Virus record (IMG/VR): IMGVR_UViG_3300040801_001493
Coordinates: 1-30,583 of that record
Length of the DNA: 30,583 nucleotides
Reading direction: 5' to 3' (one strand)
Source of the DNA: a virus
The translations under genes were made by a program, and so were the position numbers. Each line of letters starts with the position of its first letter. Position 1 is the stretch's first letter. The notes beneath the pieces are model-generated. The model did not search any database and was not told the DNA's origin. It saw nothing but the letters and a program-made list of their open reading frames with translations. Positions 8,105-22,319 of this stretch are shown here, piece by piece.

Positions 8105-9049
8105 TTAATAGTCGAGACCATCAAGACGTTCGATTGCCTCTGTTTGAAGAACACGGATCAGATCACGGAGTGTCATCTGAGAGTCTTCCAGCATATCGAA
8201 TAGCTGCGCGGCAGCTTCCTTGGTGATCAGTGGCTCCTCCTCCATAGTTTCGAGACGCAGCTCCTCGGCCAGCAGCGAAACGATTTCGTCGGTGTCTAGT
8301 TCTTCCTTTATGATATTTGGGTCGATGATAAAGTTACCTGCCTCAAGAGCATTCTGGCCAACGAGGAACGGATGATCCATGTGACCACGGTCGTTCAGGT
8401 TAATGCTAACGTCTTTCAGCATCTTATCAGCGATCTTGATGTTCATCTTCACAACAGGTCGGTACTCTGTCTTTTCTGACGAAGGAACGCGGACAGCTTG
8501 TTGATCCGCCAGAGGCATGGTGAAGCGATTCTCTGATAGCTCAGGGCACATGAAGCTTACCTTACCGTTGCCGCGGTCAATCTCAATGTCTTCAGCATGT
8601 AGGCTGCAGATCGAGGCACCAGTATCAACCTTACCGGTCAGCTCCGCGCCAGTTGGGAGATCGGTAATCATCACTTTGACAATATCGGGAATGATCCGAC
8701 TCTGATCGATCTCCTTGAATCCTTCTGTGACCTTCCTACCACCAAAGCGTGCAGGAGTATCGAAGCGAACTGTGGAAGGCACCATCTGAAGTTTGTTGTT
8801 GAAAGCCCATACAAAGACAATCCAGTCTTTCATTTCAGCTGCTTTAGCTTTCTCAACGTTCTCTTCGTTTTTGCGGACGCTATACACAACAAGAGCTTTG
8901 TACCCTTTGAGGATCATATCGAGCACGCTATGCTCGGTGCTCTTGATCTGGCGGTACTCAACATCATTCACTACGATGGTCTCGTCGAACTTGACTTGCC
9001 CACCGCCAAATGATTGCTTTAGCGCATCCAGATTAGCAAACTCGTTCAT
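8105..9049 (-). CDS. Retropepsin-like 'ATP-dependent zinc protease' family protein (RimK-associated type)
   Basis: The product is 314 residues. The central domain (about 125-245) carries the aspartic-protease signature KVDTGASICSLHA (DTGAS at 142-146), RPVV (197-200) and NDRGHMDHPFLVGQNAL (219-235). This order is typical of the family annotated as putative ATP-dependent zinc protease, which is built like a retropepsin. The N-terminal 120 residues are unassigned and the C-terminal 65 are acidic and helical. The ATG overlaps the stop of the nuclease gene (ATGA). A late promoter octamer at 9081-9088 and an AAGGGA site suggest its own late transcript. The target is unknown; head maturation is one possibility. 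Confidence 0.82.
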   Translation of the reverse strand: MNEFANLDALKQSFGGGQVKFDETIVVNDVEYRQIKSTEHSVLDMILKGYKALVVYSVRKNEENVEKAKAAEMKDWIVFVWAFNNKLQMVPSTVRFDTPARFGGRKVTEGFKEIDQSRIIPDIVKVMITDLPTGAELTGKVDTGASICSLHAEDIEIDRGNGKVSFMCPELSENRFTMPLADQQAVRVPSSEKTEYRPVVKMNIKIADKMLKDVSINLNDRGHMDHPFLVGQNALEAGNFIIDPNIIKEELDTDEIVSLLAEELRLETMEEEPLITKEAAAQLFDMLEDSQMTLRDLIRVLQTEAIERLDGLDY

Positions 9050-9772: not shown

Positions 9773-9934
9773 TTAGTTTTGAGCTCGGTAAGCGTCTTCG
9801 ACCTGCTCACGTCTTTTCTTCGACATCTGAGACCATGTTTCACCAGCAGCCTTTTTCTTAGCACGCTTTCGGTTCTTGCGGTCAGCGTACGCTTGGATGC
9901 GAGAGCTGACTTCAAACAGGTCTGCTACTTTCAC
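9773..9934 (-). CDS. Small basic protein with capsid-targeting-like N-terminus
   Basis: The product is 53 residues and starts at GTG 9934, overlapping the previous stop by 4 nt (GTGA). It begins MKVADLFEVSSRIQAY, which has the Leu-x-Glu site (LFE) that T4 prohead protease cuts after. The middle is very basic (DRKNRKRAKKKAAGETW). It is the last gene of the tight 12233-9773 series. The existence is supported by the overlap and by the shared N-terminal pattern. An internal head role is inferred. Confidence 0.65.
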   Translation of the reverse strand: MKVADLFEVSSRIQAYADRKNRKRAKKKAAGETWSQMSKKRREQVEDAYRAQN

Positions 9935-10071
9935 TGTTTGCTCCCAGGATCACGACTCATCTGCTTCTTGCACTTACGTTCGTGCTTAGGTAGGTTAGGT
10001 ACCGCCCTCCCGCACCAGCGGCATCTACCTTTACCCTCTTTTTTCTGTTCGAATAGGTCCAGTAGTTTCAT
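9931..10071 (-). CDS. Small zinc-finger-like protein with capsid-targeting-like N-terminus
   Basis: The product is 46 residues. The ATG overlaps the preceding stop (TAATG) and its own stop overlaps the next GTG. It begins MKLLDLFEQKKEG, again with LFE near residue 8. CRWCGRAVPNLPKHERKC (residues 17-34) supplies two Cys, a His and a Cys with zinc-finger spacing. Lys and Arg make up about a third of the protein, so nucleic acid binding is plausible. I know no named family. Confidence 0.7.
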   Translation of the reverse strand: MKLLDLFEQKKEGKGRCRWCGRAVPNLPKHERKCKKQMSRDPGSKQ

Positions 10072-10421
10072 TACTTCGACAGTCTCTTGTTGAGCTTCTG
10101 CACCAGTTTCGACTTAGCGCTACGCTTAGTGTTGTTGGCTTTGCGACGAATGATGCCACCCTTCGTACGTTGTACCTTCTTACCAACACGCTTCTTCTTA
10201 GGATCGGCTCGCGTAACGCACGTCTTGGGGTCGGACACCAGCTTGCCCGCTTTTGGACCTGTCGTGCAACGGTACATTTTCTTGATGTTCTTACCGGAGC
10301 GCTTGTAGGCGCGCTTCACGCCTTCGGAAAGAACTTCACCAGCTTCATCCACAAAGACGATTTCGCAATCAGTGCACTCTTGCTCCTGAATGATCTCATA
10401 CAGTTCTTTCAACAGGCTCAT
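10071..10421 (-). CDS. Highly basic internal-head-protein candidate, paralog of the 10421-10837 gene
   Basis: The product is 116 residues. N-terminus MSLLKELYEIIQE resembles T4 capsid-targeting sequences and ends in IQE, a fit to the (Leu/Ile)-x-Glu cleavage rule. A short acidic segment (EIVFVDEAGEVLSEG) follows, then a conserved core (RAYKRSGKNIKKMYRCTTG, KLVSDPKTCVTR) and a very Lys/Arg-rich C-terminus that is histone-like. The core and N-terminus are clearly shared with the next gene upstream, so the pair arose by tandem duplication. Probable function: a DNA-associated protein packaged in the head and perhaps injected. This is inference from sequence pattern. Confidence 0.8.
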   Translation of the reverse strand: MSLLKELYEIIQEQECTDCEIVFVDEAGEVLSEGVKRAYKRSGKNIKKMYRCTTGPKAGKLVSDPKTCVTRADPKKKRVGKKVQRTKGGIIRRKANNTKRSAKSKLVQKLNKRLSK

Positions 10422-10837
10422 TAGCTTATTCCTTTAGCTGTCTTTGGTTTACGCTGTGCACTCATGCGCTTCAGACGTTTGTTGGCTTTGCGCACCATCT
10501 TTGAAGTGTTTGTTTTCAGTGCGATCTTTGATTTGCGGATACGAATGTTCTTCTTCTCAGAAGCAATCTTTCTACCAGCAAGAACACGAGCGAGACTCTT
10601 GCGCTTCACGCACGTCTGTGGGTTAGCAACCAGACGACCCTTCTTTTCGCCTGACACGCAACGGAACTTGCGTGTAATCTTCTTGCCCTGACGACGAAAT
10701 GCAGTTGTCGCTTCCTCGCTGAGAACAGCGCCATCCTCGTTGACGTATACTACTTCAAGTTCATCGCCATCCTCGTCGAGATAAACATAGTCGTCACCTT
10801 CATGAATGATGTCCAATAGCTCTTTTAGAAGACTCAT
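10421..10837 (-). CDS. Highly basic internal-head-protein candidate, paralog of the 10071-10421 gene
   Basis: The product is 138 residues. N-terminus MSLLKELLDIIHE carries an IHE site at residues 11-13. Residues 14-40 are strongly acidic (DDYVYLDEDGDELEVVYVNE). The core (AFRRQGKKITRKFRCVSG, RLVANPQTCVKR) matches the paralog, and the last 65 residues are mostly Lys, Arg, Ser and Ala. Both genes keep the same two cysteines. Start and stop overlap neighbours by one base (TAATG). If the head protease cuts after Glu13, the mature protein would keep an acidic front and a basic DNA-binding tail. Confidence 0.8.
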   Translation of the reverse strand: MSLLKELLDIIHEGDDYVYLDEDGDELEVVYVNEDGAVLSEEATTAFRRQGKKITRKFRCVSGEKKGRLVANPQTCVKRKSLARVLAGRKIASEKKNIRIRKSKIALKTNTSKMVRKANKRLKRMSAQRKPKTAKGIS

Positions 10838-11181
10838 TAGTCAATCCCACGCGATCCGGCATTATAGCCAGTAGTTGTTGTGTTGTTACCCCCCGACGTT
10901 CCGGGCTGATCAGGCGAAATCCCCGTCACACTCGGATCTTGCTTTGACTGTCCGCGCGAAGCTTTTGCCTTAGCCCGATCCATCATCTTCTGCTTTTGTC
11001 GCTGCTCAGCATTGCGCATTACTTCACGCTTATACATAGCCTGAAAGCGCTTCTGTCCAGATGGCGAGCCGGATCCCTTTTGAGCTTGTTGTAGTTGAGG
11101 GTTATTGGCCACAAACTCAGGATCGATGACCATCGGCGACTCGTCTTCGAACTCAGCCAGAAATTCCTTGAACGTGAGCAT
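10837..11181 (-). CDS. Internal head or core protein candidate
   Basis: The product is 114 residues. It begins MLTFKEFLAEFEDES, strikingly like the T4 internal protein leader MKTYQEFIAE, with LAE at residues 8-10 where T4 leaders are cut. The middle is helical, rich in Gln, Lys and Arg (RFQAMYKREVMRNAEQRQKQ), and the tail is a flexible Gly/Asn/Thr stretch (GNNTTTTGYNAGSRGID). There is no recognisable enzyme motif. It overlaps both neighbours by one base. Packaging into the prohead is inferred from the leader. Confidence 0.78.
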   Translation of the reverse strand: MLTFKEFLAEFEDESPMVIDPEFVANNPQLQQAQKGSGSPSGQKRFQAMYKREVMRNAEQRQKQKMMDRAKAKASRGQSKQDPSVTGISPDQPGTSGGNNTTTTGYNAGSRGID

Positions 11182-12233
11182 TAGCGATCTCCTAGGTACT
11201 TGAACAGGTAGCGAAGGAAGTCTTGCGGATCCATTTTCGAATCACTATTCTTGTCAACCTTGTTGAAGACGTTGACTGTCCCCTTTTCTTCTTGTTCTAC
11301 CCCAACCGCCATATCAGCAGCTGCAACGGGATCTGCCGACGGACCGAGGTCATCTTCATCAGCAGCCATGTCGTGCTTCCATTTGGCTAGCTGAGCGAGG
11401 CGTTTGGCTTCTTTGTTCTCGTCTTTCTTGTTCTTGTAGTACGTTTCCATGTCTAGAATCTGTTCTTCTTGACGTACTTTAGCCATTGCCGCTTCTCGCT
11501 CAGCTTCCGCCTTTTTTGCTTCTGCCTCTGCTTCTTTCGCTCTTGATTCAGCTGCTTGAGCGTCCTGTTGAGATTTCAGGAGATCGATGACCTGCGAGAG
11601 CATAGTTGCTTGGTCAAATTCTTCGCCGCCCTCATCGTCTGCCTCCATATCAAGATCGTCTTCGCCTTCACCCTCTTCGTCGGCGTCGAGATCGTCTTCG
11701 CCTTCGGTGTCGTCTAGAGTTTCATCACTAGCTTCAGTTGCATCCTCTTCTTCATCTTCTTCGATCTCGGGCCAGATCACATCAACAATCGTGAAGCGAT
11801 CCTTGAGTTTGAAGAGAACCTCAGCGATCTCCATAGACGTTTTGTCGTCCGTGAGAGCTTCGTCGTCTTCGCCGTGAAGCATGTGAGCAAGGGCGGTTTC
11901 AAAATCGTCTGCTTCATCAGCGGCGACAAGAACACGAACGACTTGGCCGTTCTCATCTTCAAGACCAAACGTCTTCGTATCTTCCATGTTCTTTGCTTTC
12001 TTATCCGCAGCAGCCATCTTCGACACGACAGCGGCAGGGTCAAAAGACTGTTCTGCTTCCACCATGCGGAAAAGATAGCCAACGGGTGCTAGTCGGCTGC
12101 GAACCTTGTCTTCCTTCTTGCGTTGCTTCTTTCTCGTCTTTCCCCCGATGGGGCTGCGGAACCCGGCAATTGCGCCTGCAGAGGTCGCTCCGGCAGCAGC
12201 CATTTCAGAAATGACGTCCTTGAGTAGTGACAT
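11181..12233 (-). CDS. Large acidic coiled-coil protein, prohead core or internal protein candidate
   Basis: The product is 350 residues. The leader MSLLKDVISEMAAAGA has ISE at residues 8-10. A basic patch follows (KTRKKQRKKEDKVRSR), then a folded acidic region, a run dominated by Asp and Glu (about residues 155-215), and a long Ala/Glu/Lys helix (KEAEAEAKKAEAEREAAMAK) likely to form a coiled coil. The C-terminus has an EF-hand-like loop, NKVDKNSDSKMDPQDFLRYL. Acidic, coiled-coil composition is typical of T4-type prohead core (scaffold) proteins. It is the first gene after the late promoter at 12267-12274 and heads the six-gene series. Confidence 0.78.
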   Translation of the reverse strand: MSLLKDVISEMAAAGATSAGAIAGFRSPIGGKTRKKQRKKEDKVRSRLAPVGYLFRMVEAEQSFDPAAVVSKMAAADKKAKNMEDTKTFGLEDENGQVVRVLVAADEADDFETALAHMLHGEDDEALTDDKTSMEIAEVLFKLKDRFTIVDVIWPEIEEDEEEDATEASDETLDDTEGEDDLDADEEGEGEDDLDMEADDEGGEEFDQATMLSQVIDLLKSQQDAQAAESRAKEAEAEAKKAEAEREAAMAKVRQEEQILDMETYYKNKKDENKEAKRLAQLAKWKHDMAADEDDLGPSADPVAAADMAVGVEQEEKGTVNVFNKVDKNSDSKMDPQDFLRYLFKYLGDR

Positions 12234-12266: not shown

Positions 12267-12274
12267 TATTTATT
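12267..12274 (-). promoter_or_regulatory. T4-type late promoter (AATAAATA)
   Basis: AATAAATA matches the consensus at 7 of 8 positions and lies 33 nt before the ATG at 12233. It sits just after the terminator of the upstream operon, so it probably drives the whole 12233-9773 cassette. A weak AGGGATGG serves as ribosome site. Confidence 0.7.
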
Positions 12275-12294
12275 GAGACGGACTTCTGGGAAAC

Positions 12295-12324
12295 AAAAAA
12301 CCCGACACAGTGGCCGGGCTTTTT
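12295..12324 (-). terminator. Intrinsic terminator of the helicase operon
   Basis: On the minus strand CCCG (12315-12318) pairs with CGGG (12301-12304) around a 10-nt loop, followed by TTTTTT (12295-12300). A run of T at 12320-12324 lets it also work on the plus strand. It separates gene 12342-12653 from the late cassette. Confidence 0.85.
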
Positions 12325-12341
12325 GCGTGGTTAGATGGGTG

Positions 12342-16719: not shown

Positions 16720-16745
16720 GAACCGTATTTATCTACGGTTCATGC
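16716..16745 (-). promoter_or_regulatory. Perfect 12-bp hairpin containing late promoter and start codon
   Basis: GCATGAACCGTA (16716-16727) pairs perfectly with TACGGTTCATGC (16734-16745) around a 6-nt loop. The late octamer GATAAATA spans 16726-16733, and the ATG of gene 16141-16719 is in the arm. Read-through RNA would hide the start codon; RNA begun at the octamer would lack the 5' arm. No U tract follows, so a terminator is unlikely. Confidence 0.85.
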
Positions 16746-20733: not shown

Positions 20734-21864
20734 ATGGCAGATACTGTCTTTTCACATAAGAAAACAGACTTTACGAAAGAGGCGATGTTTTTCGGCGCTG
20801 AGCCGAACATCGCCCGGTACGATGTTCAGAAGTACGCAGTATTCGAGAAGCTAACGGACACACAGCATTCGCTGTTTTGGCGCCCTCAGGAAGTTGATTT
20901 GACGAAAGATGCTCGAGACTTCAAGCGTCTCGAATCGCACGAGAAGTTCATTTTCCTCGCGAACCTCAAATACCAGATCCTTCTCGATTCGGTTCAGGGG
21001 CGATCGCCAACGATCGCTCTCCTGCCGTATGTTTCGATTCCGGAACTAGAGGTGTGTATCCAGGCGTGGGCGTTCTTCGAAACGATCCACAGTCGTGCCT
21101 ATACCCACATCATCCGGAACATTGTAACAGATCCGTCAGAGATTTTTGACGTGATCCTTGACGACGAGAAGATTCTTGCGCGTGCGACGGCAGTAACGAA
21201 GTACTACGACGACTTCATCGAATACGCCAAGTGGTACGATCTTCTTGGGTTCGGCACACATCAAATCAATGGCGAGGAGATTGAGATCACCGAGTACGAT
21301 CTGATGAAGAAGCTGTACCTGTGTCTGATCTCCGTATACATCCTCGAAGGTCTTCGCTTCTATGTCTCGTTCGCTTGTTCATTTGCGTTCGCGGAACTCG
21401 ACAAGATGGAGGGTAACGCGAAGGAGATCTCATTGATCGCTCGCGACGAGGGTCAACATTTCTCGATCACTACAAACATCATTCGTGCTTACGTTCAGAA
21501 GGAAGGCAACGAAGTGATGCTTCAGGTGATGAAAGACTGCGAAGCAGAAGTGTATGAGATGTTTGATAACGCTGTTCAACAGGAGAAGGAGTGGGCAGAG
21601 TACCTGTTCAAGGACGGATCAATGATCGGCCTCAACGCCAAGCTGCTTGGTAACTACGTTGAGTGGATGGCAAACAAGCGCATGCGCGCACTTGGGTTCA
21701 AAGGACCGTACGATCAACCGTCTAATCCGCTTTCGTGGACACAAAGCTGGCTGTCTTCTCGTGAGAAGCAAGTTGCTCCTCAGGAAACGGAGATTGAGAG
21801 CTACCTGATTGGTGCGATTGAGAATGACGTGAAAGATGACACGTTTAGCGACTTCGCCTTATAA
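20734..21864 (+). CDS. nrdB: Ribonucleotide reductase class I, small subunit
   Basis: The product is 376 residues; T4 NrdB has 388. It carries the di-iron centre and tyrosyl radical. Seen: FWRPQEVDLTKDARDF, LLDSVQGRSP (metal Asp), FFETIHSRAYTHII (Glu and His ligands and the radical Tyr), EGLRFYVSFACSFAF and RDEGQHFSITTNII (second Glu, then Glu and His). The C-terminal DDTFSDFAL fits the tail that docks into NrdA. The start follows AAGGAGAACTAG. Its TAA stop is part of the late promoter TATAAATA at 21860-21867. Unlike T4 nrdB, no intron interrupts it. Confidence 0.97.
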   Translation: MADTVFSHKKTDFTKEAMFFGAEPNIARYDVQKYAVFEKLTDTQHSLFWRPQEVDLTKDARDFKRLESHEKFIFLANLKYQILLDSVQGRSPTIALLPYVSIPELEVCIQAWAFFETIHSRAYTHIIRNIVTDPSEIFDVILDDEKILARATAVTKYYDDFIEYAKWYDLLGFGTHQINGEEIEITEYDLMKKLYLCLISVYILEGLRFYVSFACSFAFAELDKMEGNAKEISLIARDEGQHFSITTNIIRAYVQKEGNEVMLQVMKDCEAEVYEMFDNAVQQEKEWAEYLFKDGSMIGLNAKLLGNYVEWMANKRMRALGFKGPYDQPSNPLSWTQSWLSSREKQVAPQETEIESYLIGAIENDVKDDTFSDFAL

Positions 21865-21872: not shown

Positions 21873-22319
21873 ATGCTTCTTAACGAACTCTTCAACTCAG
21901 CTCGCAATCGTGTACTCAAGTGGAGATACGATGAAGAACACTCGAACGAGGTTATCGCCTCGTTCGAGACGTCCGACGGTAAGCACGCTTACTCTGTAGC
22001 AATGGATGGCAACGCCGAAGGTCAATGGTGGGTGTCATTTGCGCACATGGATCCAGAAGACGGTGAGCACTCCACAGATATTGTACCTGTTGGTGATAAT
22101 GCTATTTCGGTCCTAGCAACAGTGTACGATATTATCAAGGACGTAATTCGCAAGAAGTCGGTGAAGATGTTAGTCTTTAGTGCCAAAGAACCTTCGAGAG
22201 TTAAGCTCTACAGCAGGATGGCTAAGCGATTTAATCCCAACTACGAGAAGAAAAAGATCGGGATGAATATGGTCTTCAAAGTTCCTGTGGACGGCAACAC
22301 CCCTGCAAAAAATCGTTGA
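21873..22319 (+). CDS. Conserved late phage protein with capsid-targeting-like N-terminus
   Basis: The product is 148 residues. N-terminus MLLNELFNSARNRV has LNE and is similar to the leaders of the 9773-12233 cassette. The body has a beta-rich half (IASFETSDGKHAYSVAMDG, GQWWVSFAHMDPEDG) and a C-terminal half with VKMLVFSAKEPSRVKLYSRM followed by AKRFNP. That last pattern is one I recall from many phages as an uncharacterised family with an acetyltransferase-like look. No Shine-Dalgarno is present; the perfect late octamer lies 5 nt upstream. It may be a packaged internal protein, which is inference. Confidence 0.82.
   Translation: MLLNELFNSARNRVLKWRYDEEHSNEVIASFETSDGKHAYSVAMDGNAEGQWWVSFAHMDPEDGEHSTDIVPVGDNAISVLATVYDIIKDVIRKKSVKMLVFSAKEPSRVKLYSRMAKRFNPNYEKKKIGMNMVFKVPVDGNTPAKNR

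Follow-up and report, generated by a model that had tools for sequence, protein, structure and literature searches.

The cut motif of bacteriophage T4 is L/I-X-E, the leaders of its internal proteins (IPs) target these proteins into the core, and peptides of gp22 and gp67 remain in the mature head (PMC9026906). How core proteins of the T4 type enter the prohead and are attached to the shell is described as unresolved (PMC9958956). Leaders of this kind in T4 are those of the IPs (MKTYQEFIAE, then A), of IPI (MKTFKEF...ITE, then A) and of gp24 (MAKINELLRE, then S). Residues 66-91 of the T4 major capsid protein gp23 form the N-fist (PMC7136217), which lies in the prohead interior and moves outward at expansion (PMC9958956). 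In SPN3US and phiKZ several head proteins are trimmed after Glu and have propeptides of varied length (PMC10052503), but these are other proteins, with another consensus, than those described here.

The window analyzed here is a whole IMG/VR virus record of 30,583 bases, which is probably a fragment. Pfam and PHROGs identify T4-like replication genes for a family B polymerase, a DnaB-type helicase (gp41) and an exonuclease, and genes for ribonucleotide reductase and topoisomerase were recognised from the translations of the open reading frames only. Head genes are not present in these 30.6 kb; the gp21 protease is encoded by the relatives XacN1, RAS14 and SCTP-2. A cassette on the minus strand lies between gp41 (14370-13018), followed by two small genes, and the exonuclease (start at about 9720). 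A preliminary description from the sequence had reported six chained genes with capsid-targeting-like leaders, and the list of open reading frames with translations confirms all six on the minus strand at 12233-9773, overlapping by 1 nt among the first five genes and by 4 nt for the last, with the leaders MSLLKDVISE, MLTFKEFLAE, MSLLKELLDIIHE, MSLLKELYEIIQE, MKLLDLFE and MKVADLFE. The features are as follows.

12293 to 12326, minus strand: terminator hairpin of the upstream operon, preceding the late promoter (-19.8 kcal/mol, z -4.6).
12267 to 12274, minus strand: late promoter -10 element AATAAATA.
11181 to 12233, minus strand: P350, leader, gp23-arm-like basic linker and acidic coiled-coil core; predicted precursor core protein.
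12204 to 12233, minus strand: P350 leader MSLLKDVISE, predicted cut after E10 (site conservation in the family).
12129 to 12203, minus strand: gp23-arm-like segment of P350 (gp23-arm HMM; reverse search with a P350 HMM).
12057 to 12065, minus strand: second predicted P350 site, MVE59 before AEQSFD, preceding the conserved core (family site test).
11220 to 11255, minus strand: EF-hand-like loop DKNSDSKMDPQD near the P350 C-terminus (sequence; Pfam EF-hand_1 E 0.018, below the cut-off).
10837 to 11181, minus strand: P114, small protein with leader MLTFKEFLAE (leader site kept in the family).
10421 to 10837, minus strand: P138, basic, with a predicted acidic propeptide; leader MSLLKELLDIIHE and second site VLSE41.
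10715 to 10723, minus strand: conserved junction site of P138, LSE at residues 39-41 (family site test).
10071 to 10421, minus strand: P116, paralogue of P138; leader MSLLKELYEIIQE and second site VLSE33.
10323 to 10331, minus strand: conserved junction site of P116, LSE at residues 31-33 (family site test).
9931 to 10071, minus strand: P46, basic, C2HC zinc-knuckle-like (C17, C20, H30, C34), leader MKLLDLFE (sequence).
9773 to 9934, minus strand: P53, basic, 53 aa, GTG start, leader MKVADLFE (sequence only).

Adjoining the exonuclease, a gene at 8105-9049 (minus strand) matches Pfam Zn_protease (PF05618, E 4e-14) and, by eye, a Zn_protease-like gene follows the exonuclease in most loci with P350.

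Like the cassette products, T4 IPI, IPII, IPIII and Alt combine a short leader ending in (I/L)xE with small basic bodies. The P114 leader is close to the leaders of IPI and of IPII/IPIII and has TFKEF in common with IPI, whereas the cassette leaders with MSLLK and MK..LFE share only the general plan with T4 leaders. Beyond the leader no similarity to the T4 IPs or Alt was found, and the cassette bodies have no Pfam or PHROG match above the cut-off. Unlike the T4 IPs, P138 and P116 have acidic propeptides with a second site, and all the genes lie in a single operon between gp41 and the exonuclease. P350 is comparable to T4 gp22, gp67 and gp68 in being acidic and coiled-coil with more than one (I/L)xE site, but in contrast to these core proteins it contains a gp23-arm-like segment, and in relatives a separate gp22-like gene adjoins gp23 besides P350. 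Its layout also recalls T4 gp24, in which a 10-residue leader is followed by LRE-STTT; however, a capsid domain of the HK97 fold is not seen in P350, where the arm is followed by a basic linker and an acidic core. The cassette appears to function like the T4 set of internal and core proteins, but outside the leader it does not belong to the IP family by sequence.

Relatives of P350 were found in about 20 loci of IMG/VR, and three jumbo phages, XacN1, RAS14 and CM1, also have one; relatives of P138/P116 occur in the P350 loci, in SCTP-2 and in further contigs. A first-pass search for close relatives started from P116 returned none. Relatives of P114 lie directly 3' of P350 in ten other loci, and the order of P350, then P114 and/or P138, then the exonuclease is kept in eleven loci. 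The three families gave no match above the cut-off in Pfam and PHROGs, and P350 was not found when T4, S-PM2, Syn9 and ACG-2014f were searched by profile. In a site test, motifs [LIVMF]xE whose end falls in a narrow interval before a conserved anchor were compared with those before random anchors in the same protein. With site windows (10-14 residues) chosen after the alignments had been viewed and related sequences counted as independent, the site was found at the core boundary in 18 of 19 members of the P138/P116 family (expected 3.8, p 1e-12), at the leader of all 11 members of the P114 family (p 1e-11), before the AGxIA segment (the arm motif) as the first site in 15 of 16 P350 members (p 8e-10) and before the FD core as the second P350 site in 13 of 16 (expected 3.4, p 4e-7). 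The single miss at the first P350 site, L026, has LNE just beyond the test window, and E10 is invariant or nearly so in the P350 alignments A4 and A5. At the second site, P350 of the window has M at P3 (MVE) and so matches the consensus weakly. Leader length and leader sequence vary within these three unrelated families while (I/L/V)xE stays just before the conserved domain; in P138-type proteins the leader ranges from 5 residues (MYFIE before AKMVWARSGK) to 41 residues in P138 itself, with the site staying at the core, and two further copies show the same junction (ITE, then GATQIFSRQGGK; IHE, then AKMIYGRKGK). An (L/I)xE at the predicted maturation point, by which candidate gp21 substrates were recognised here, is kept in relatives of the P350, P114 and P138/P116 families. 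Tandem P138-type genes were observed in two loci (L036:9950-10542 and L038:9974-10610), with an (I/L)xE of their own before each basic core.

P138 and P116 are paralogues with 43% identity. The predicted propeptide of P138 has a net charge of -13 and the mature part one of +31 (pI 12.0), the corresponding values for P116 being -9 and +29 (pI 11.7). A structure model of P116 (pLDDT 79) contains a leader helix (3-13), a beta hairpin (35-52) and basic helices (74-115). Judged by the alignments, E41 of P138 and E33 of P116 constitute a second predicted site that is better conserved than E13 of the leader, and both proteins are probably matured there rather than at E13 alone; cutting at E41/E33 would strip an acidic propeptide from a protein of pI 12. 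E13 as the sole cut site is disfavored because the core-boundary site of the family is E41/E33.

In one locus (L034) P350 is fused to a P114-like end (FLDVMNE, then DVTANVNAIQ), so that a P114-type leader becomes an internal site, VMNE. P46 matches Pfam zf-BED below the cut-off (E 0.016). In the cassette slot of another locus (L023:8142-8585), a P46-like leader, MKLVDIFE followed by QK, stands on an unrelated body, which corresponds to the end of phrog_23027 (E 2e-8). A search for relatives of P53 found none, and none are known for P46. P46 and P53 are putative head proteins by leader resemblance alone.

The proposed single late promoter was also found, as a T4-type element, AATAAATA, 41 nt before P350 (12274-12267). 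In 19 of 20 loci NATAAATA occurs 22-49 nt before the start of P350 (expected 0.03 per locus), and late elements of this type number only eight in the whole window. By its TATAAATA-like -10 element, P350 is classed with late genes of the T4 type in 19 of 20 loci. The terminator that had been proposed with the promoter exists as a strong hairpin but is placed upstream of the promoter, at 12326-12293, where it would close the gp41 operon; a similar hairpin is present in L002, and none was seen when a terminator was looked for at the 3' end of the cassette.

Virion evidence is available for the corresponding gene slot of other phages. Phage CBB has CBB_292 to CBB_298 after gp41, and the products of CBB_292, CBB_294 and CBB_298 were detected in virions by mass spectrometry (PMC5259590). 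CBB_293, an arm mini-protein described below, is not listed (PMC5259590), though a cut form of it would need a semi-tryptic search. Several genes of 121Q between gp41 and the exonuclease are annotated as structural. As the slot proteins of CBB and 121Q are not recognisable homologues of P350, these data support the slot and not P350 itself. P350 of XacN1 (ORF347) is absent from the main text of the proteome paper on this phage, and so are the relevant open reading frames of RaK2 from that of the RaK2 proteome paper. Small processed proteins of such virions may escape tryptic proteomics if semi-tryptic peptides are left out of the search.

Sites at domain boundaries, a conserved promoter and virion proteins in the CBB slot support a late operon of head-targeted, processed proteins, and we consider with good confidence that the cassette is a late module through which a large T4-like phage makes proteins of the prohead core and of the head interior. 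Boundary-site conservation, the late promoter, the arm resemblance and the shared gene slot are read directly from the sequences, and from there we infer targeting, cleavage, virion presence, DNA binding and shell binding of the cassette products, as follows. With its short leader each product would probably enter the assembling core, where a gp21-type prohead protease would then cut after (I/L/V)xE. P138 and P116 would enter as precursors in which the acidic propeptide offsets the very basic domain, and cuts at E41 and E33 would release proteins of about pI 12 that may bind the packaged DNA and might be ejected with it. Cutting of P350 after E10 and near E59 would separate an acidic coiled-coil core fragment from a basic linker resembling the mature N-terminus of gp23, and this linker probably contacts the shell at the binding places of the gp23 arms and so ties the core to it. 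Injection of cassette products is presumptive, as is any role of P46 and P53.

Alternatively, the cassette could encode cargo, the leaders delivering DNA-binding and zinc-knuckle proteins for injection and action in the new host in the manner of T4 IPI or Alt, which provide a precedent (PMC9026906). That bodies differ behind similar leaders in the slot (MKLVDIFE-QK in L023, MRINDLFE-KT in SCTP-2) would agree with such a role, but P138 and P116 look like DNA-binding packers, no host target is suggested, and P350, being acidic, coiled-coil and multi-site, is nearer to core components. We regard the cargo explanation as possible though doubtful; for P46, P53, P138 and P116 it is compatible with the module of core and internal head proteins. 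The earlier proposal of an operon of head-packed and possibly injected proteins is partly supported: the late operon of putatively head-targeted, processed products is retained, whereas P350, with its two predicted sites, seems to be a core protein or a link to the shell rather than injected cargo.

P350 has a pI of 4.3 and a net charge of -46, and its parts are the leader, a linker of charge +9 (pI 11.4) and a core of charge -54. The structure model is poor overall (pLDDT 64, pTM 0.24); Foldseek searches of the PDB with the P350 and P116 models gave nothing better than E 1.8, and in BFVD the P350 model, poor as it is, had two nameless matches (E 1e-9 and 1e-6). EF-hand-like loops near the C-terminus are present in three members, namely in the window (DKNSDSKMDPQD) and in L002 and L028 (DGDGDGKMDPQD, DQDGDGYLNDEE), and most other members have only a terminal helix-like stretch there. 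A 648-aa relative (L003:6262-8208) has a long insertion after the arm, with MTAAGAVKFWRDQHGGGA present twice.

After the first site P350 reads MAAAGATSAGAIAGFRSPIGGKTRKK, and gp23 of XacN1 reads TASAGAIQANDIANFRKTLLPMVRR after its predicted cut; similar post-cut sequences occur in gp23 of RAS14, SCTP-2, G005, G012 and GAP32. An HMM built from six gp23 arms was searched against 3,114 proteins and ranked the six gp23 proteins at the top, then P350 of the window (E 4.7e-5), followed by L002 (5.5e-4), RAS14, GAP32_288, XacN1 and the RaK2 open reading frame, with the first unrelated protein at E 2.5. The match covers residues 8-35 of P350, aligned to the gp23 cut site and arm. In the reverse direction, a P350 profile searched against whole phage records found the gp23 N-termini of G005 (6.7e-4) and GAP32 (0.018), through model positions 4-36 only, and pairwise shuffling of the window segment against G005 gp23 gave a z of 8.7. 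P350 of the window thus carries a sequence match to the gp23 N-arm after its predicted cut site. The window, L002, XacN1, RAS14 and the mini-proteins show the resemblance strongly; several divergent P350 members show it weakly (E above 1), L028 lacks it, and T4 gp23 does not score against the arm profile (E 0.7). After the predicted cut, P350 of XacN1 would start at TAGGGATGAGG, that of RAS14 at TAGAGAIGTGS, and CBB_293 and 121Q_22 at NASSGATSAG.

With the P350 profile, GAP32 was also found to have a gene of 52 aa immediately 3' of gp41, and RaK2 an unannotated counterpart (JQ513383, about 120,706-120,860; L070), a 52-aa open reading frame with leader and gp23-arm-like segment. Such mini-proteins of 52-54 aa stand alone after gp41 in GAP32 (GAP32_288), CBB (CBB_293) and 121Q (121Q_22), where they are annotated, and in RaK2, and tblastn extends them to 35 records. 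The family is phrog_17311, annotated as hypothetical, which matches P350 of the window weakly (E 0.018). Its members have a leader and a GATSAGAIA-type arm like P350 but are without the acidic core; 121Q_22 consists of MKKKNIKE followed by NASSGATSAGAIASVSTGLHYPL and has GATSAGAIA in common with the window.

Given the initial position of the T4 N-fist within the prohead and its later outward movement, a core protein with a gp23-arm mimic would be well placed to touch the shell, and P350, the largest member of the cassette, may in this way tie core to shell. Tentatively, and with chances somewhat short of even, P350 and the mini-proteins of the RaK2 type can be read as a protease-freed mimic of the mature gp23 N-arm that would dock on the shell during maturation. 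If this is true, core and shell would be coupled by a new mechanism, with a core protein borrowing the arm of the shell, or the mimic might instead fill free arm sites, for example at vertices. In the literature searched, a part of the whole, no description of the arm-like segment was found. The segment could also be an extended docking site for the prohead protease in gp23 and P350, with no binding to the shell, and in both proteins the resemblance indeed begins right at the cut site; yet other likely substrates in these phages and families (gp21, gp22, P114, P138) have (I/L)xE sites without arm-like sequence downstream, and we judge this explanation unlikely. The mimic reading is directly testable, as the module offers predicted cut points in three protein families, and a peptide that may bind the shell is encoded on its own, by a gene of 52 aa, in the culturable phages GAP32, CBB, 121Q and RaK2.

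The leaders themselves had been the starting point of the preliminary description, and the six shared leaders are real, but a single one is uninformative. With patterns that were defined post hoc, the leaders being already known, [LIVMF]xE with E at residues 6-20 is matched by 12 of the 39 other genes of the window (31%) and by all six cassette genes (p=0.002), and the stricter form with E at residues 6-13 by 4 of 39 and all six (p=2.6e-5). As 12 of 39 other genes match the loose motif, one leader proves nothing, and the motif count alone was rejected as proof of leaders; the relatives are a much stronger support for the predicted leader sites than the motif, and for four of the genes (P350, P114, P138 and P116) they decide the question. 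At the first sites the P1' residues are M, F, G and Q, which are less typical there than A, T or S. The gp23 cut-site regions of relatives (LAE-TA, LLE-TA, LKE-SA, LSE-TA, LRE-SA) conform to the cassette consensus. That the leaders are coincidental amphipathic N-termini, and the proteins intracellular ones with a part in, say, late replication or transcription alongside gp41 and the exonuclease, would suit the frequency of the loose motif and the position among replication genes, but it is very improbable, since the site keeps its place at the core boundary across families (p 1e-12 to 4e-7), the late promoter is separate and the CBB slot encodes virion proteins.

Two other late-promoter genes of the window encode products with leader-like ends, one at 16719-16141 (minus strand; GATAAATA at 16733; MQLRQIFE) and one at 21873-22319 (plus strand; TATAAATA at 21860; MLLNELF), and it is possible that they are additional head-targeted proteins.
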